Notes: generated from the sequence alone by a model not told the origin. DNA of 48,199 nt from an uncultured Lentisphaeria bacterium (GCA_949287225.1 CASEFP010000023.1:1-48199); one strand, 5' to 3'. Positions 34,422-45,269 are shown, counted from the stretch's first letter. Numbers and translations: made by a program.

Positions 34422-35657
34422 ATGCAGAATACTCCAAAAGGACTCAGACTTCAGATCGGCATCTTCGGAAGAAGGAACGCCGGAAAGTCCTCCCTTCTCA
34501 ATGCGCTGGCGCGTCAGGACGCCGCGATCGTCTCGGATACTCCCGGCACCACGACCGACCCGGTCGAAAAGGCCATGGAAATGCTTCCGCTCGGACCGGT
34601 GCTGCTGATCGACACGGCGGGACTGGACGACGATGCGGCACGGATCGGAAATCTCCGGATTGAGCGGACAAGGAAAATTTTCGAACGCGCGGATCTGGCG
34701 CTGCTTGTCTCCGATGCGAACTGGGGAACGTTTGAGGAGGAGCTTCTCGCTTCGTTCGAAGCACGGAAAACCAGTCTAATTGTTGTTTTCAATAAAAGTG
34801 ATCTGGCTCCCGCGCCGGCACATGTTCTCGGCAAACTGGATGCGCGCGGCGTCTCCCATGTCTCTCTTTCCGCCCGGACCGGCGAAGGACTCGGCGCACT
34901 GCGCGAAATGATCCTCCGCAAGGCACCGGAAGATTTTCTCTCCTCCAGCCGTATGCTCGGCGACCTGGTGCCGAAGGGGTCTCCGGTCATGCTGATCACG
35001 CCGATTGACCTGGAGGCGCCGAAAGGGAGACTGATCCTGCCGCAGGTGCAGGCGATCCGCGACACGCTGGACCACGACTGCTACTGTCTGGTGGTCAAGG
35101 AGAATGCGCTGGCGGACGCTCTGGCGAATCTGAAAACGCCGCCCGCGCTGGCAGTGACTGACTCGCAGGCATTCGGCACTGTCTCGCCGATCGTTCCAGA
35201 AACGGTGCCTTTGACCTCGTTTTCCATTCTTCTTGCCCGTCAGAAGGGCGATCTTGCCGCGTGCGCCGCCGGAGCGGCGGCGATCGGAAAGCTGAAGAAA
35301 AATTCCCGCGTCCTGATCGCGGAGGCCTGTTCGCACCACCCGGTCGGGGAGGACATCGGCACGGTCAAGATTCCGAACTGGCTGCGTAAACGCTGTTCGC
35401 CGGATCTCGTGATCGAACACGCGCAGGGGCACGACTTCCCGAAGGATCTTTCCGGATACGACCTCGTGATCCACTGCGGGGCATGCACCTTCAACCGCCG
35501 CGAAGTGCTCTCTAGAATTCTGCAATGCTCCGAACAGGGGGTTCCGTTCACGAATTACGGCGTGGCGATCGCCTTCTGCTTCGGCATTCTGGAACGCGCG
35601 TTGCGCCCGTTCCCGGAAGCGCTTGCGGCTTATGAAAGGACGGTCCGCGCGGAATGA
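34422..35657 (+). CDS. hydF: [FeFe]-hydrogenase maturation GTPase HydF
   Basis: 411 residues. HydF is the scaffold on which the two-iron part of the H-cluster is assembled with the radical-SAM enzymes HydE and HydG before transfer to the hydrogenase. The N-terminal GTPase has P-loop GRRNAGKSS, SDTPGTTTDPV, DTAG and NKSD. The middle part carries LDHDCYCLVVKE and PPALAVTDSQAFG. The C-terminal cluster domain has LTSFSILLARQKGDL and the ligand set C303-x-H305 and H351-C352-x2-C355. HydE, HydG and the hydrogenase are not in the window. Its stop overlaps the start of the HypF-like gene (ATGA 35654-35657), so the two are translationally coupled. Confidence 0.95.
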   Translation: MQNTPKGLRLQIGIFGRRNAGKSSLLNALARQDAAIVSDTPGTTTDPVEKAMEMLPLGPVLLIDTAGLDDDAARIGNLRIERTRKIFERADLALLVSDANWGTFEEELLASFEARKTSLIVVFNKSDLAPAPAHVLGKLDARGVSHVSLSARTGEGLGALREMILRKAPEDFLSSSRMLGDLVPKGSPVMLITPIDLEAPKGRLILPQVQAIRDTLDHDCYCLVVKENALADALANLKTPPALAVTDSQAFGTVSPIVPETVPLTSFSILLARQKGDLAACAAGAAAIGKLKKNSRVLIAEACSHHPVGEDIGTVKIPNWLRKRCSPDLVIEHAQGHDFPKDLSGYDLVIHCGACTFNRREVLSRILQCSEQGVPFTNYGVAIAFCFGILERALRPFPEALAAYERTVRAE

Positions 35658-38008
35658 GAAGCATCATCCTCTTTGAACTCAAGGGCAACCTGCATGTCGG
35701 GGGATTCCGCCCCTTCCTCTGGAAGATCGCCTCGGAAGCGGGGCTTTCCGGATGGGTCGCGAACTCCGAACAGGGGGTTCTGATGCGCCTTGAGGGAGAG
35801 GAGGAACGGATCGGGGAGTTCATCAAGTCCATCCCCTCCAAAGTCCCGAACGCGTTTTACATGAAGGAGATCCGCCTGGTCCGGCGCGAGCCCAGCGGTC
35901 CGCTCGACCTGCGCCACGTCGGTTTCCGCATCACCGGGGAGGACAATAAAGTTCCCCTGATCAATCCGGACCGGGCCCCGTGTCCGAAATGCATCGCCGA
36001 GGCGGAAGATCCCGCATCGCGCCGCTATATCTATCCCTTTTCAAGCTGTTTCATCTGCGGACCGAGCTACTCCTTTGCGCTGCGCACGCCGTTCATCCGC
36101 AAGAATACGAGCATGACCGCTTTCCCGATGTGCACCGATTGCCGGAACGAAAAAAACGATACGCATGATACGCATCACTATGCCTCTGAAACGCTCGCCT
36201 GCCCGAAGTGCGGCCCGCAGATTTTCCTCCTCGACATGTACGGGGAGCTGATCGACGACGCAGTGCCGATCTGCCGGGCGCAGGAGGGGCTGCGCGGCGG
36301 GGATATTCTCGCGATTCAGTCCGTCTACGGCGGATTCCTGCTCTGCGCGGACGCGTTCAACACGGATACGATTCTGCGCCTCCGGCGGAAAAAGAAACTG
36401 CCGGACCGCCCGCTCAGCCTGCTGGCAAAAAACGTGGAATGCGTCAGACGATATTTTGAATGCTCGCCGGAAGAGGAGAAACTCCTCGCCTCTCCGATTG
36501 CGCCCGTGGTCATACTGAAGCGGAAAAAAGAGAGCGGCGGACTGCGTCCCCTGCCTGATCTGATCTCTCCGGACACCGACACGGTGGGAGTCGGACTGCC
36601 GCCGTCGCTGATCGAAAAACTGCTGTTCGACCACCATGCGGGAAACGCGCCGGACTCCGGGTTCGAGTTTCTCGTGACCTGCGGCGACAACCGCCCCGGC
36701 AAGGCGGAGTGTCTGGACATCGACGAAATCTTCAACCGCCTGATGCCGTTCACCGATAAATTCCTCTGTCACGATCTGAAAACGGGACACCCCTGTCCCG
36801 CCTCGATCTGCACGGTCCGTGACGGACGCGTCCGGATCTGGCGGCGGTCGCGCGGCTATGTGCCGCAGGGCATCGCCTTCAACGGACGCCTCACGCGCAA
36901 TGTCGCGGCATACGGCACGGACGCGCCGGCGGCCGTGGCATTCGGCGTCGGCAAGGAGATTCTGCCCTCCCAGTGCATCGGGATGGTGGATTCCCGGGAG
37001 TCGGCAACCATCCTTTCCGATGTTCTGGAACGCTTCACCTATCTCACGGATCATGTCCCGGGCCTGGTGGTCTGCGACATGGACAAGGAATCCTTCAGCG
37101 CGCGGGAGGCCGCCGCCTTCGCGGACAGGCACGCGCTCCCGCTGGTGACCGTCCAGTCGCATCACGCCCACGCGCTCGCCTGCATGGCGGAACACGGGCT
37201 GCGCCATGCCCTTGCGCTGGTCTACAACGGCGGCGGATACGGTCCCGACGGAACCGAGTGGGGCGGAGAGTGCCTCGAAGCGAATACGGACGGATTCTGC
37301 CGCTTCGCCTCGTTCAACGGCCGCTACCGCCTCGAGGCAAGGGACGCGCAGATCCGTTCGGCGAAACTTTTTCTGGAGCGTCTTGTCGAAATCGGGCACG
37401 AACCGGAACAGCCGCTGCTGGATCGTCTGCGGGTCGACCGGAGCGAATATGAACTCTGGAAGAAAAACTATCTGGACGGACGCGGAAACGCCGTCTTCTC
37501 CCATGCCGCGATCCGTCTGTTCGACGCGGTCTGCGCGGGCATCGGCGCGGCGCCGGATTTCTGCACATACGACAACCGCTGTCTGCTGATCCTGAACAAA
37601 TACGCGTCGCGCTGCACTCTTCCCCTCGCGGAAATTCCCGGAACAATCCGGAATCTCTTCCGGTTCGACATGCGCGAAGAGGAGCGCTATTCCGTGCTTG
37701 ACTGGAGCCGGACGTTCGTAAATCTTGCCGCTCTCGCCCAGTTGCCGGAAGAGGAGCTTCCGCTCTATGCGAAGGCCTTTTACGGCGCGATGGCAGAGGC
37801 GGGGCTCGCAATGATCGACTATGCCGCGCGCTTCTCGCGGGAGCGCGCCGTGGTGCTTTCCGGGCGCCTGTTCCAGGACGGACTGCTCAGCGACATGACC
37901 GCCGAACTCCTGACTGCGCGCGGCTATACCGTTTACCAGCATGAGAAAACGCCGGCGGACGAATCAGGGGTATGCATCGGACAGGCATACGCCGCGGGAA
38001 TGTCCTGA
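35654..38008 (+). CDS. HypF-like carbamoyltransferase with altered active-site motifs
   Basis: 784 residues with the whole HypF domain order. An acylphosphatase-like N-terminus (R19 kept in HVGGFRPF, where HypF has VQGVGFRP). Two Cys4 zinc fingers (C110/C113/C132/C135, with YIYPFSSCFICGPSYSF; and C160/C163/C183/C186). A YrdC-like domain at about 205-400. A Kae1-like domain to the end (SHHAHA with H503/H504/H506, YNGGGYGPDGTEWGGE, SGRLFQDGLL). True HypF makes the thiocarbamate on HypE for the cyanide ligands of [NiFe]-hydrogenases. By my eye alignment the YrdC motifs are changed: Lys to Q222, and R-x-D-D-S-V to P380-C-P-A-S-I385. Coupled to hydF, not to hyp genes. Confidence 0.85.
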   Translation: MRSIILFELKGNLHVGGFRPFLWKIASEAGLSGWVANSEQGVLMRLEGEEERIGEFIKSIPSKVPNAFYMKEIRLVRREPSGPLDLRHVGFRITGEDNKVPLINPDRAPCPKCIAEAEDPASRRYIYPFSSCFICGPSYSFALRTPFIRKNTSMTAFPMCTDCRNEKNDTHDTHHYASETLACPKCGPQIFLLDMYGELIDDAVPICRAQEGLRGGDILAIQSVYGGFLLCADAFNTDTILRLRRKKKLPDRPLSLLAKNVECVRRYFECSPEEEKLLASPIAPVVILKRKKESGGLRPLPDLISPDTDTVGVGLPPSLIEKLLFDHHAGNAPDSGFEFLVTCGDNRPGKAECLDIDEIFNRLMPFTDKFLCHDLKTGHPCPASICTVRDGRVRIWRRSRGYVPQGIAFNGRLTRNVAAYGTDAPAAVAFGVGKEILPSQCIGMVDSRESATILSDVLERFTYLTDHVPGLVVCDMDKESFSAREAAAFADRHALPLVTVQSHHAHALACMAEHGLRHALALVYNGGGYGPDGTEWGGECLEANTDGFCRFASFNGRYRLEARDAQIRSAKLFLERLVEIGHEPEQPLLDRLRVDRSEYELWKKNYLDGRGNAVFSHAAIRLFDAVCAGIGAAPDFCTYDNRCLLILNKYASRCTLPLAEIPGTIRNLFRFDMREEERYSVLDWSRTFVNLAALAQLPEEELPLYAKAFYGAMAEAGLAMIDYAARFSRERAVVLSGRLFQDGLLSDMTAELLTARGYTVYQHEKTPADESGVCIGQAYAAGMS

Positions 38009-38303: not shown

Positions 38304-40424
38304 ATGATTACGGAACAGCAGGCGTTGGACGACCTGATCGTTGCCGCCGCGCAGGAAAACAATGACGCGGCAGTGATCAAACTTCTCTCGGAAATCAAAA
38401 CATGCGATGTGAAGCTGCTGAAGGATGCGGCGGCAAATTTCGATTTCCTTTTCGAGGCGTGGGACGACACCGTCGCAAAATTCGACGACAAAGCGGCCGT
38501 CTGCCTCTATCTTGCTGAAAATTCCGTGCTCGACACCCAGAACTTCCGCACCGCGCTGCACAATGCGGTCCGGAAATTCCTCCCACCCTACATCTCCAGC
38601 CCCGGCATTGCGAAAACCGTCGGCGCCAGAGACCAGTCCGTTCCCGTTCACGATGTCGCGGCGCGCATCCGGAAACTCCGGAAGCTCAAAACCAACGCGT
38701 TCGTCTATCAGATCGAATCGCAGAGCTGGGGCCGCGTCGTCAATGTGGACAAGGTCGTCGCCACCATCGCGGTCAACACCTTCGCAACAGGAGCCCAGCT
38801 TTCGATTCCGATCGCCAACGCGCTCGCGGGCTGCCTCTTTTTCGAGCCCAGCGTCGAAATGACCTCGATCATCGCCACGGAAAAACGCAATCTCAAACCC
38901 GCCGCCTTCTACCACCAGAAACTGGAGAAATACTCTCTCGGCGACCTCTCCGAAACCAAGATCAAAGACCTCCTTTTCCGGATGTTCGTGCCGCAGATTC
39001 TCTCCCAGGAGGAATTTGCCAAATGGTGGGCCTCCGCCGACGCACCCGCTGCGACCGCGCCCAGACAGCGCGCCTTCCAGGATGCCCGGAGTATTCTTGA
39101 ACTTTCCACCCTGCTTGCGCCGCTGGATCCCGCAGCAGTCAAGGTGGATATGGCTGCGGCACAGAAGCTCTCGAAGCTCTTTCTGCACCTGAAACCGGTG
39201 ATGTCGCCGAAGGATCTGGAGATGCTGGCCGAGTGCATCGCGATGCTTGCAGATTCCGCCGACGCCGAAACGCTGAAAGTCATGTATCAGCCGCTGCGGG
39301 GGAAAGTCGCCTTCTGGCCTCGCGAAATCAACGAGTCCATCCCGCTGAAACAGCTGGAAATCTGGGGACGGCTTTCGGTCAGGCACTTCACCGGATTTCT
39401 GAAAGCGGCAAGCCTTGTCTACGACCGCCTTGAAATCGCGAAACTCGCCACAATCCTCCCGCTCCGCTGCATCTCGATCATGTTCGAATCCCTGACCGTG
39501 GACGACATCAGTGATGCGGTCTTTGCCGCAAACAGCCTCAATTCCGATATTCTGCTCGCAATCTGGAAAAACCGCGCAAAATTCCCTCACGAACTGACCA
39601 GTTTCCTTACAATGGCCAACATCTCGGCAGCCCTGTCGGTCGAAGGCCTTCCCAAGGAGTGGGCGGCGGCACAGCGTGAACTCAAGAAATCGCTGTTCGA
39701 CAAAGCCGATTTCCAGAAGTTCGTGCTCGCCAATGCAGGTTCGAACATTCCATCGGTCATCACCGCAATCCAGCGGATGCGCAACATGGCGCCGGGCGAA
39801 TGCCAGAGTCTGCTGGTCAAGCTTTCGCGCCACTCCGAAGCGCTCAAGGAGCAGATTGAAAGCGGCGAAGGCCGCAAACTCCTTGCCGCCCAGGATGCGG
39901 AAGCAGGCAAGAAACCCAAGGAAGGTCCGCCGATGACATCGATCCGATCCTACAAGGGACTGGTCGCCGAACTGGACAACATCGTCAAGGTTCAGGTTCC
40001 GGAAAACAACAAGGCGATCGAACATGCGCGCGGGTTCGGCGATTTCCGCGAAAATGCCGAATACGACGCGGCCAAGGAGCGCAGACGTTTCCTCCAGCGC
40101 CGCCGTTCCGAACTGGAAATGCTCATTGCAACGGTCCAGCCCATTGATTTCCGCGCCATCAGGATTGATCCGGAAAAGGTCTCTTTCGGCACCATGGTGA
40201 CCGCGGAATCCCCGGACGGGAAGACCACGGATTACTGCATTGTCGGAGCCTGGGACGGCGATCCGGACCGGAATCTGGTTTCCTACAAGACAAAATTCGG
40301 AGAAACACTTCTGGGAGCCAAAGTTGGAGAAACGGTCAAGCTCCCCGACGGTGAAACTATTACAATCAAGAAGATTTCTCCGCTTCCGGACGCTCTTGCA
40401 AAAGAGCTCTCCCCTGAAGAGTGA
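38304..40424 (+). CDS. greA: Transcription elongation factor GreA, long PVC-type form
   Basis: 706 residues; normal GreA is about 158. The GreA part is at the C-terminus: a coiled coil around 550-620 carrying the catalytic tip GD580-F-R-E583-NAEYDAAKE, and then the FKBP-like domain (VSFGTMVTAESPDG, LLGAKVGETVKLPDGETITI). It inserts into the secondary channel of RNA polymerase and triggers cleavage of backtracked RNA. The first about 540 residues are helical, with no motif I know. A GreA of similar length occurs in chlamydiae, so this supports PVC ancestry. AAGGAG lies before the ATG. The metallophosphoesterase gene overlaps its stop. Confidence 0.9.
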   Translation: MITEQQALDDLIVAAAQENNDAAVIKLLSEIKTCDVKLLKDAAANFDFLFEAWDDTVAKFDDKAAVCLYLAENSVLDTQNFRTALHNAVRKFLPPYISSPGIAKTVGARDQSVPVHDVAARIRKLRKLKTNAFVYQIESQSWGRVVNVDKVVATIAVNTFATGAQLSIPIANALAGCLFFEPSVEMTSIIATEKRNLKPAAFYHQKLEKYSLGDLSETKIKDLLFRMFVPQILSQEEFAKWWASADAPAATAPRQRAFQDARSILELSTLLAPLDPAAVKVDMAAAQKLSKLFLHLKPVMSPKDLEMLAECIAMLADSADAETLKVMYQPLRGKVAFWPREINESIPLKQLEIWGRLSVRHFTGFLKAASLVYDRLEIAKLATILPLRCISIMFESLTVDDISDAVFAANSLNSDILLAIWKNRAKFPHELTSFLTMANISAALSVEGLPKEWAAAQRELKKSLFDKADFQKFVLANAGSNIPSVITAIQRMRNMAPGECQSLLVKLSRHSEALKEQIESGEGRKLLAAQDAEAGKKPKEGPPMTSIRSYKGLVAELDNIVKVQVPENNKAIEHARGFGDFRENAEYDAAKERRRFLQRRRSELEMLIATVQPIDFRAIRIDPEKVSFGTMVTAESPDGKTTDYCIVGAWDGDPDRNLVSYKTKFGETLLGAKVGETVKLPDGETITIKKISPLPDALAKELSPEE

Positions 40425-42483: not shown

Positions 42484-43935
42484 TCAGCAGCAGGCGAGAT
42501 CGGGTTTGCGCGCGGCGGTCGTCTCGTCCAGACGCTTCACCGGCATCGTCAGCGGACACGCCTTCAGCGATTCCGGCGACTCCTGCGCCAGCTTCGCGAT
42601 TTCGATCATCGCCGCGATGAATACATCCATATCCTCGCGCGACTCGGTCTCCGTCGGCTCGATCATCAGCGCCTCGGGCACGATCAGCGGGAAGTAGATC
42701 GTCGGCGGGTGAATGCCGCGGTCGATCAGCCCCTTCGCCACATCCAGCGCGTGGACACCCCCTTCCCGCACCTGTTTCGACGCGGAAAAGACACACTCGT
42801 GCATGCAGACGCGGTCGTATTTGCGCTCATAGTAGGGTTTCAGCGCCGCCATGATGTAGTTGGCGTTCAGGACCGCGTTTTCGCTGACGCGCACCAGCCC
42901 TTTGCGCCCGAGCGTCAGAAGATAGGCGTAGGCGCGCAGGATCACGCCGAAGTTGCCGTAGAACGGCGCGATGTAGCCGATCGACTCGGGATGTTCGTAT
43001 TCCAGCACGCACATGCCGTCGGAACGGCGCACCACGCGGGACACAGGCAGGAACGGAACAAGTTTTTCCACAACGCCGACCGGGCCGGCGCCGGGACCGC
43101 CTCCGCCGTGGGGCGTCGAGAAGGTCTTGTGGATGTTGACGTGCATCACATCGAAGCCGACGTCGCCGGGACGCAGCCGTCCGATGATCGCATTGAAATT
43201 GGCTCCGTCGCAATAGCAGAGCCCGCCCGCCTCATGGATCAGCGAACAGATCTCCTTCACGTTCGGATCGAACAACCCGAGCGTGTTCGGACAGGTCAGC
43301 ATGATACCGGCGATCTCAGGCGAAAGCATCGCTTTCAGGGCTTCCAGATCGACATTGCCGTTTTCGTCGCTCGGGACGACCTTCGTCGTGAATCCCGCCA
43401 CCGTCGCGCTCGCCGGATTCGTGCCGTGCGCGGCGTCGGGGATCAGCATGATCTTCCGCGCAAAATCCTTCCGGGACTTGTGATAGGCGGCGATCAGCAT
43501 GACGCCGGTAAGTTCGCCGTGCGCGCCCGCCATCGGCTGCATCGTGGTCTGGGAAAATCCGAGAATTTCGCTGAGCATCCGTTCGGTCTCGTAGATCACG
43601 GTCAGCGCGCCCTGCGTCAGGACGCCGCCGTGCCGGAGCTGCGGCAGAAGCGGATGCAGTTCGGCGAATCCGGGCAGCCGGACGATTTTTTCATGGGATT
43701 TCGGATTGTATTTCATCGTGCAGGAGCCGAGCGGATAGAAATTCGTGTCCACGCTCATGTTCATCCTGCTGAGGTTCGTGAAGTGGCGCACGGTCTCCAG
43801 TTCGGAGACCTCGGGCAGCGCGGCGGTTTCGGAACGCCTGAGGGACGGCGGAACGGCGCACCCCTGCGGCACGTCGAGAACGGGAAGAACGGCGCCTGTG
43901 CGCCCCGGGCGGCCGGATTCGAATATCAGTTTCAC
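42484..43935 (-). CDS. gcvPB: Glycine dehydrogenase (decarboxylating) subunit 2
   Basis: 483 residues. This is the pyridoxal-phosphate half of the split P-protein of the glycine cleavage system. The cofactor Lys is K270 in HVNIHKTFSTPHGGGGPG. SRMNMSVDTNFYPLGSCTMKYNP, PMAGAHGELTGV, PDAAHGTNPASA and YCDGANFNAIIG are typical. With GcvPA it decarboxylates glycine and passes the aminomethyl group to lipoylated GcvH. GcvH and GcvT are not in the window. Its start overlaps the gcvPA stop by four bases (ATGA), showing translational coupling. Confidence 0.97.
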   Translation of the reverse strand: MKLIFESGRPGRTGAVLPVLDVPQGCAVPPSLRRSETAALPEVSELETVRHFTNLSRMNMSVDTNFYPLGSCTMKYNPKSHEKIVRLPGFAELHPLLPQLRHGGVLTQGALTVIYETERMLSEILGFSQTTMQPMAGAHGELTGVMLIAAYHKSRKDFARKIMLIPDAAHGTNPASATVAGFTTKVVPSDENGNVDLEALKAMLSPEIAGIMLTCPNTLGLFDPNVKEICSLIHEAGGLCYCDGANFNAIIGRLRPGDVGFDVMHVNIHKTFSTPHGGGGPGAGPVGVVEKLVPFLPVSRVVRRSDGMCVLEYEHPESIGYIAPFYGNFGVILRAYAYLLTLGRKGLVRVSENAVLNANYIMAALKPYYERKYDRVCMHECVFSASKQVREGGVHALDVAKGLIDRGIHPPTIYFPLIVPEALMIEPTETESREDMDVFIAAMIEIAKLAQESPESLKACPLTMPVKRLDETTAARKPDLACC

Positions 43936-45269
43936 AGTAATGCCTCCATTGCGTTTGCAAGCGCTTTGATCTCTTCCTTCGTGCGTTTTTCCGTGACGGC
44001 GATCAGAAGCTGGTCGCGCCGGTCCGCGTAGTATCTGCCGAGCGGGAATCCGGCGGCGAACCCCTTGTCGATCAGTTTGCCGGCCAGTTCCGAAGCGTCG
44101 CAGGGCACCTTGATGACGAACTCGTTGAAAAAGACGCCGTTCCCGACCGGCTCGACGCCCTTGATCGCGAGGAGTTCGTTTCTGGCGAAGACCGCCTTGG
44201 ACATGCAGAGATTTCCGATGTCGACGAAGCCCTGCTTGCCGACAGCGGTAAGATAAATAAGCGCGGAGAGCGCACAGAGGCTCTCGTTCGAACAGATGTT
44301 GCTGGTCGCGTGCTCGCGGCGGATATGCTGTTCGCGGGTCTGGATCGTCAGGACATAACCATCCTTTCCGTCGAGATCCTTTGTGCGCCCGACGATGCGT
44401 CCCGGCATCTTGCGCATGTATTTACCGCGGACGGTCATGAATCCGAGATAAGGTCCGCCGAAGCTCAGCGGAATGCCGAGGCTCTGCCCCTCCCCCGTCA
44501 CGATGTCGAATCCCATTTCGCCGGGGGTCTTGAGAACGCTCAGGGCGATCGGATAGGTCGAGCAGACGGCGAGCGCTCCGTTGGCATGAGCGGCGGCAAC
44601 GACGCTGCTGAGGTCTTCGATCTCGCCGAAGAAGTTCGGGTACTGGACGATCACGCACGCGGTGTTTTCGTTGACGGCGCGCTTGAGATTTTCCAGATTG
44701 GAATCCGTTCCGTTTCCCGCGGGGACTTCGCGCCGTTCCACATCCAGATTGATGCAGTAGCATTCGATCATGCGCCGGAAGATCGGGGAGACTGCTCCGG
44801 AGATCACCACCTGCCGCCGTCCGGTGATCTTGACGGACATCATCATCGCCTCAAAGAGAGCGGTTCCGCCGTCATAGAGGCTGGCGTTGGAGACCTCCAT
44901 GCCGGTGAGGCGGCACATGGCGGTCTGATACTCGTAAATCGCCTGAAGCGTTCCCTGGGAGGCCTCGGGCTGGTAGGGGGTGTAGGCGGTGTAGAATTCG
45001 CCGCGCGAGACGATGCTGTCAACGACGGAGGGGATGACGTGGTCGTAGTAGCCGCCTCCGACGAAGTTGATCAGGTTTGTGGCGTTCATCGCGGCGAGAT
45101 GTTCGAGATGCTTCACCACCTCGTATTCGGATTTTCCCTCGGGGATGCCGGAGAGCGCGGGATACGGAAAGCGGACGCCCGCTTTTTCCCACATGTCCTC
45201 CAGACTGGAGAAACCGGCGGCTTTGAGCATTTCCGCGCGGTCGCTTTCGGTGTTGGCAATATACGGCAC
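43932..45269 (-). CDS. gcvPA: Glycine dehydrogenase (decarboxylating) subunit 1
   Basis: 445 residues, the usual length, from GTG 45269. It begins PYIANTESDRAEML, then GGGYYDHVIPSVVDSIVSRGEFYTAYTPYQPE in the order expected of the family, and contains SLYDGGTALFEA and SNICSNESLCAL. It forms the P-protein together with GcvPB. The frame is open a further 29 codons upstream, but that part covers the palindrome at 45301-45318 and lacks family similarity; GGGAGAAG lies before the GTG. An 18-base palindrome 32-49 bases upstream is a likely operator. Confidence 0.95.
   Translation of the reverse strand: MPYIANTESDRAEMLKAAGFSSLEDMWEKAGVRFPYPALSGIPEGKSEYEVVKHLEHLAAMNATNLINFVGGGYYDHVIPSVVDSIVSRGEFYTAYTPYQPEASQGTLQAIYEYQTAMCRLTGMEVSNASLYDGGTALFEAMMMSVKITGRRQVVISGAVSPIFRRMIECYCINLDVERREVPAGNGTDSNLENLKRAVNENTACVIVQYPNFFGEIEDLSSVVAAAHANGALAVCSTYPIALSVLKTPGEMGFDIVTGEGQSLGIPLSFGGPYLGFMTVRGKYMRKMPGRIVGRTKDLDGKDGYVLTIQTREQHIRREHATSNICSNESLCALSALIYLTAVGKQGFVDIGNLCMSKAVFARNELLAIKGVEPVGNGVFFNEFVIKVPCDASELAGKLIDKGFAAGFPLGRYYADRRDQLLIAVTEKRTKEEIKALANAMEALL

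Follow-up and report, generated by a model that had tools for sequence, protein, structure and literature searches.

The hydF/hypF-like gene pair

The window (the whole 48,199-nucleotide stretch of DNA analyzed here, from an uncultured Lentisphaeria bacterium) contains a gene for HydF, a maturation protein of [FeFe] hydrogenases, directly followed on the same strand by a gene encoding a homolog of HypF, which is known from the maturation of [NiFe] hydrogenases (Table 1). The assembly routes of these two hydrogenase classes are taught as unrelated. The upstream gene encodes a genuine HydF, scoring 532 bits against TIGR03918 (cut-off 326), with both its GTPase motif (GRRNAGKS) and its cluster ligands (CxH-x45-HCxxC) intact. 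The downstream gene is an intact open reading frame, the product of which matches the HypF profile TIGR00143 from end to end (E 7e-126). Its score of 421 bits lies under the equivalog cut-off of 466 bits, as do those of the remaining complete members of its clade (316-456 bits).

The ATG start codon of the hypF-like gene shares the bases ATGA with the TGA stop codon of hydF, bearing out the four-base overlap described in an initial, sequence-only reading of the window. Such an overlap is by itself commonplace in operons; it is the conservation of the hydF/hypF-like junction, rather than the ATGA alone, that amounts to more than chance. The same reading had noted that the window holds no hypA-E, and no such gene was found among the called genes, part of which were scanned against family libraries. 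Scans for promoters and terminators gave signals no higher than those of shuffled sequence.

Table 1. Features of the hydF/hypF-like gene pair, in window coordinates
Feature	Position	Strand	Basis and remarks
hydF, [FeFe]-hydrogenase maturation GTPase/scaffold, 411 aa	34422..35657	+	TIGR03918; HydF dimer and tetramer domains (Pfam)
ATGA stop/start overlap of hydF and hypF-like	35654..35657	+	Sequence; junctions compared in 17 genomes
hypF-like gene, 784 aa, apparently catalytically degenerate HypF paralog	35654..38008	+	TIGR00143; own clade; AlphaFold2 model
Acylphosphatase-like (ACP) domain, residues ~1-95	35654..35938	+	Pfam; VQGVGFRP here reduced to LHVGGFRP
Paired HypF zinc fingers, residues 106-190	35969..36223	+	PF07503; four CxxC pairs intact
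YrdC-like domain, residues 213-399	36290..36850	+	PF01300; KxR Arg, SxN Ser, and RxDD residues lost
HDL tripeptide, H373 D374 L375	36770..36778	+	Invariant in HypF-like clade
Kae1-like domain, residues 415-781	36896..37996	+	PF17788, PF22521; HHHAH to SHHAH, DGTG to NGGG, NDGG to DESG

Two other loci in the window were annotated. A gene on the + strand (38304-40424) encodes a transcript cleavage factor of the GreA type with a greatly extended N terminus, the family match being confined to residues 547-683 of 706. A two-gene glycine cleavage P-protein (42484-45269, PF02347) is encoded on the opposite strand, some 4 kb away from the hydF pair. Intermediates of glycine cleavage are a proposed source for the bridging ligand of the H-cluster; an operon link between these genes and the hydF pair was not seen.

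Domain architecture and active-site residues

A survey of 36 genomes of one Victivallales family, all of uncultured gut-type bacteria, provided the relatives for comparison. A profile built from the HypF-like clade scored its members at 842-1269 bits and canonical HypF proteins at 484 bits or less, and by this profile the HypF-like protein is present in 21 of the 36 genomes, spread over 8 genera. The window protein contains all four domains of HypF in the HypF order (ACP, zinc finger, YrdC, and Kae1), as judged from Pfam and from AlphaFold2/Foldseek. The eight zinc cysteines are kept across the clade, with a single substitution in one genome as the sole exception.

HypF makes use of three linked sites in turn (PMC6022934). 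The motif KxR...SxN is the signature of YrdC/TsaC and a His/Asp metal motif that of Kae1, and both are kept in HypF and TobZ (PMC9654439). In the window protein, the YrdC tetrad is broken by replacement of its Arg with Leu249 and of its Ser with Gly344, and the metal site of Kae1 by replacement of its first His with Ser502, of the DGTG Asp with Asn525, and of the NDGG Asp with Glu770. These changes extend through the clade: the KxR Arg, the SxN Ser, the Arg and first Asp of RxDDS, and the first His of the Kae1 HxxxH are kept in 0 of the 21 HypF-like proteins, while the same residues are lost in 0 of 16 aligned canonical HypF proteins of the same order. The second Asp of RxDDS is left in only one member, the second His of HxxxH in 8/21, and the DGTG Asp in 10/21. 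Several of the replacing residues differ between genera. Within the invariant HDL tripeptide, the Leu stands where canonical HypF has an Arg. The window protein has the Arg19 and Asn37 of the ACP domain, which are not kept throughout the clade. Judged by its residues, the HypF-like protein looks like a maintained fold from which the original chemistry has gone.

Predicted fold and selection

An AlphaFold2 model of the window protein, built from the clade alignment, had a pLDDT of 88.7 and a pTM of 0.89, and the first nine of its best PDB matches in Foldseek were all HypF structures. dN/dS was 0.05-0.12 in close pairs (0.07-0.10 between the window protein and those of species in the same genus) and reached 0.23 in the most divergent pair compared, with the zinc region lowest or near lowest within the window genus. 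Reading frames are intact in nearly all carriers. The HypF-like protein is thus under purifying selection despite its lost active-site signatures. One carrier, G006, has a single in-frame TAG in its hypF-like gene (C77:57826-60174), and likewise one in an [FeFe]-hydrogenase gene (C16:9686-10546), which may stem from sequencing error, from decay, or from reading of TAG as a sense codon.

Distribution and conservation of the junction

In a maximum-likelihood tree, the HypF-like proteins form one clade with 100/100 support, which holds when HypF proteins of other phyla are added. One genome (G023) begins inside the hypF-like gene, leaving 20 of the 21 carriers testable for the junction. In 17 of these, from 7 genera, hydF is directly followed by the hypF-like gene on the same strand, with the start codon of the latter placed between -1 and +17 bases relative to where the stop codon of hydF begins; the exact ATGA overlap occurs in 8 of the 17. 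Other genes flanking the pair vary between genera. The hydF neighborhood that the sequence-only reading proposed to look for in relatives is therefore widely kept.

The three exceptions differ in kind. No HydF was found in the assembly of G006. In G012 and G020, a HydF of a foreign (xenologous) type is encoded elsewhere from the HypF-like protein, with some branches in the tree so long that its exact affinity is unsure. G020 additionally has a 27-codon remnant of hydF between an SDR gene and the intact hypF-like gene, which argues that the pair is ancestral and that the HypF-like protein outlived the native HydF in this genome. Conversely, genus g5 and G015 have a related HydF and no HypF-like protein, so that the latter is dispensable there; its absence is most simply explained by loss.

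In addition, 84,980 species genomes were scanned with selected peptide patterns. Among the sequences that these patterns reach, the HypF-like protein came only from Lentisphaeria-type MAGs; most canonical HypF proteins found in the same scan adjoin HypD/HypE. A HypF seemingly lacking the His motif on a deltaproteobacterial contig (L142) proved to be encoded by a canonical gene with a frameshift, next to hypD/hypE. An origin of the HypF-like protein from the HypF of a nitrogenase-like operon described below was also considered and is unsupported. That HypF forms a separate clade (the root of the tree is not fixed) and reaches only about 300 bits against the HypF-like protein in blastp, versus 432 bits for the other HypF proteins of the order.

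Hyp and Hyd genes in the carriers

The genome to which the window belongs was searched for the remaining parts of both maturation routes, as the sequence-only reading had proposed, and all were present. One contig (C130) carries a hypF-C-D-E-A-B operon headed by a canonical HypF (589 bits), followed by genes for complex-I-like subunits and a short group-4-like [NiFe] large subunit. HydG and HydE are encoded on contigs C50 and C96, respectively, and six [FeFe]-hydrogenase domain matches were found. Since the hyp operon and the [NiFe] hydrogenase have their own canonical HypF, their presence does not tell against a separate role for the window protein. Rather, both routes look complete without it, and its existence needs a separate explanation.

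Among the 21 carriers, 12 have no HypD, HypE, or canonical HypF, so that the HypF-like protein cannot serve HypE there, and in no carrier was its gene found next to hypD/hypE. An [FeFe] hydrogenase was found in 18; the other three genomes are 80, 72, and 56% complete. Most carriers hold HydE, and the P-loop and cluster-ligand motifs of HydF are intact in all HypF-like partners. HydG is present in some carriers (e.g., G000, G001, G003, G008, G011, G012, G019, G020, and G026) and not detectable in others (G009, G010, G016, G017, and G022, among others). The HypF-like protein is therefore not tied to the source of CO and CN, and the HydF step is the shared denominator. For the same reason, we rejected the possibility that it substitutes for HydG.

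Apart from this clade, four genomes encode HypF homologs matching only the C-terminal (Kae1) half of the profile (G051:C4:49826-50923, G059:C71:14860-15954, G056:C40:37799-38911, and G047:C187:894-1964). All four have HypD, and three have HypE.

A nitrogenase-like/HypFCDE operon in relatives without HydG

Some Lentisphaerota carry a further operon, which is a matter separate from the window protein. It encodes, in order, a TM1266-type regulator (TIGR03959), HydE (in some), two successive sets of NifH-like, NifD-like, and NifK-like proteins, and HypF, HypC, HypD, and HypE. An example is found at L061 (G031:C69, 730-14054), with others at L062, L063, L064, L065, L066, L148, L150, L151, L154, L156, L158, L159, L161, and L162, and one that includes HydF at L149. 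HydF belongs to the operon only this once, and in G204, from another order, it is the first gene. At L066, the canonical HypF of the operon lies in two frames, through either an error or a true split of the gene, with the break in the YrdC region (G010:C79:16899-19150, L066 6888-9166; profile 309/313).

None of the 36 family genomes combines a hyp set of this type with HydG: the set without HydG is found in 19, HydG without the set in 14 (in two of them as fragments), and neither in 3. Nitrogenase-like genes were seen in the set-bearing genomes, except in G016 and G023, where the contig ends before them. The family members without HydG have for the most part kept HydE, HydF, and [FeFe] hydrogenase. 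In g5, g8, and G015, HypD, HypE, and HypF are present and a [NiFe] large subunit was not detected. The predicted exclusion was tested outside the family, where 6 of 6 genomes with a NifD-like protein lacked HydG and 5 of 5 without one had it (Fisher p 0.002, ignoring relatedness); three of each type belong to one genus. In G002, G013, and G024 (listed completeness 96, 78, and 89%), HydE, HydF, and [FeFe] hydrogenase are present, and neither HydG nor the operon was found.

Activation of HydA by HydE and HydF without HydG, at about 1%, has been discussed in the literature, as have clostridia in which hydG has not been identified (PMC9431212). The pattern found here suggests that these relatives likely assemble the H-cluster without HydG, with the nitrogenase-like sets and HypFCDE taking its place. 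We speculate that the Hyp enzymes would give cyanide, and that the nitrogenase-like enzymes would carry out a reductive step, perhaps one yielding CO. A literature search, in which subscription journals and preprints were thinly covered, did not find such a system. Mixing of Hyp and Hyd components does seem to occur in this phylum, as had been guessed from the window sequence. The relatives without HydG also raise a larger question: whether Hyp enzymes and nitrogenase-like reductases can act as suppliers of CO and CN to [FeFe] hydrogenase.

A proposed role at the HydF step

The sequence-only reading had suggested a possible role for the HypF-like protein in H-cluster assembly, in ligand supply, or in a side modification. 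The conserved gene pair and the 12 carriers without HypD, HypE, and canonical HypF do support a connection with the maturation of [FeFe] hydrogenase, with the qualification that the protein occurs irrespective of HydG and survives in two genomes with a replaced HydF. Ligand supply, such as that of carbamoyl or cyanide, or a carbamoyl-type modification is unsupported, because the clade as a whole has lost signature residues of both YrdC and Kae1. We therefore consider it somewhat more probable than not (roughly 0.55) that the protein is a HypF-derived pseudoenzyme, recruited beside HydF early in this Victivallales family for the maturation of [FeFe] hydrogenase. At the HydF step, we favor a non-catalytic role as a structural or regulatory partner, because HydF is the constant companion and its motifs are intact in all partners. 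The protein would retain the four-domain fold and zinc sites, having lost the residues for carbamoyl-adenylate formation and carbamoyl transfer, and we infer that it binds HydF, or acts in the handover from HydF to HydA. There, it may keep the [2Fe] carrier competent for delivery or, as another example, time its GTP-driven release, while coupled translation would match the amounts of the two proteins.

Several observations count against parts of this proposal. The hypF-like gene is intact in G020 despite the loss of the native hydF, and G012 likewise has a xenologous HydF, so that the tie to HydF may be looser than gene order suggests. Genus g5 and G015 also do without the HypF-like protein despite having the related HydF. 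These two genomes, along with G006, where no HydF was found, favor the view that the protein functions in an unlinked process and that the gene order reflects an operon inherited for convenience of expression. This is unlikely, though by no means negligible: the tight junction persists in 17 genomes and 7 genera while other neighbors vary, most carriers have an [FeFe] hydrogenase, and G012 and G020 still have another HydF. Against a pseudoenzyme speak the Arg and Asn still aligned in the ACP domain of the window protein. A re-shaped site could make another acyl- or carbamoyl-adenylate, with which the protein would modify HydF or supply a ligand of the H-cluster. The retained HypF fold and domain order are compatible with this, and the residues conserved only in the clade (HDL, DES) could mark such a site. 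However, both catalytic signatures described for the family (PMC9654439), KxR...SxN and the metal motif of Kae1, are broken in 21/21 proteins, several replacing residues vary between genera, and carriers with HydG already possess the usual source of CO and CN, making continued catalysis improbable.

Two further readings were rejected. Full-length homology would suit an ordinary HypF for [NiFe] hydrogenase that came to lie behind hydF by chance, but the canonical HypF in the hypFCDEAB operon, on another contig of the same genome and beside the group-4-like [NiFe] hydrogenase, together with the carriers without HypD or HypE and the lost active-site signatures, leaves this very improbable. The chance that the gene is a decaying pseudogene is slighter still, as the low dN/dS in close pairs and the intact frames in nearly all carriers outweigh the lost signatures and the single TAG in G006.

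In its fullest form, the proposed HydF partner would be a fourth, lineage-specific maturation factor of [FeFe] hydrogenase, with a HypF fold freed of carbamoyl chemistry and dedicated to HydF, in a lineage that has come to mix Hyp proteins with H-cluster assembly; we advance this tentatively, at somewhat less than even odds. If true, H-cluster assembly would include a component of a new kind, derived from HypF, tied to HydF, and still selected after the loss of its active-site signatures, and the poorly understood delivery step of HydF would become testable from a new side.

Comparison with known systems

With the carbamoyltransferase HypF (TIGR00143; structures 3VTH, 3VTI, 3TSP, and 4G9I), the protein shares full-length homology, the order of the four domains, the zinc-finger cysteines, and the predicted fold. 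It differs in scoring below the equivalog cut-off, in the loss of the YrdC and Kae1 signatures, and in its genomic context, as it was not found beside HypD/HypE and adjoins hydF. A literature search with thin coverage of subscription journals and preprints did not find a HydF-HypF pair, so that its novelty is unproven.

The O-carbamoyltransferases TobZ and GdmN and the t6A enzymes TsaC and TsaD have YrdC and Kae1 domains in common with the HypF-like protein, but retain both the KxR...SxN signature and the metal motif of Kae1 (PMC9654439), whereas the HypF-like protein does not. The order or presence of their other domains is also unlike that of the HypF-like protein. Compared with the HydE/HydF/HydG maturation system, the HypF-like protein is paired with HydF, and its carriers have HydF, in most cases together with HydE and [FeFe] hydrogenase. 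To our knowledge, the known HydEFG set includes no HypF homolog.
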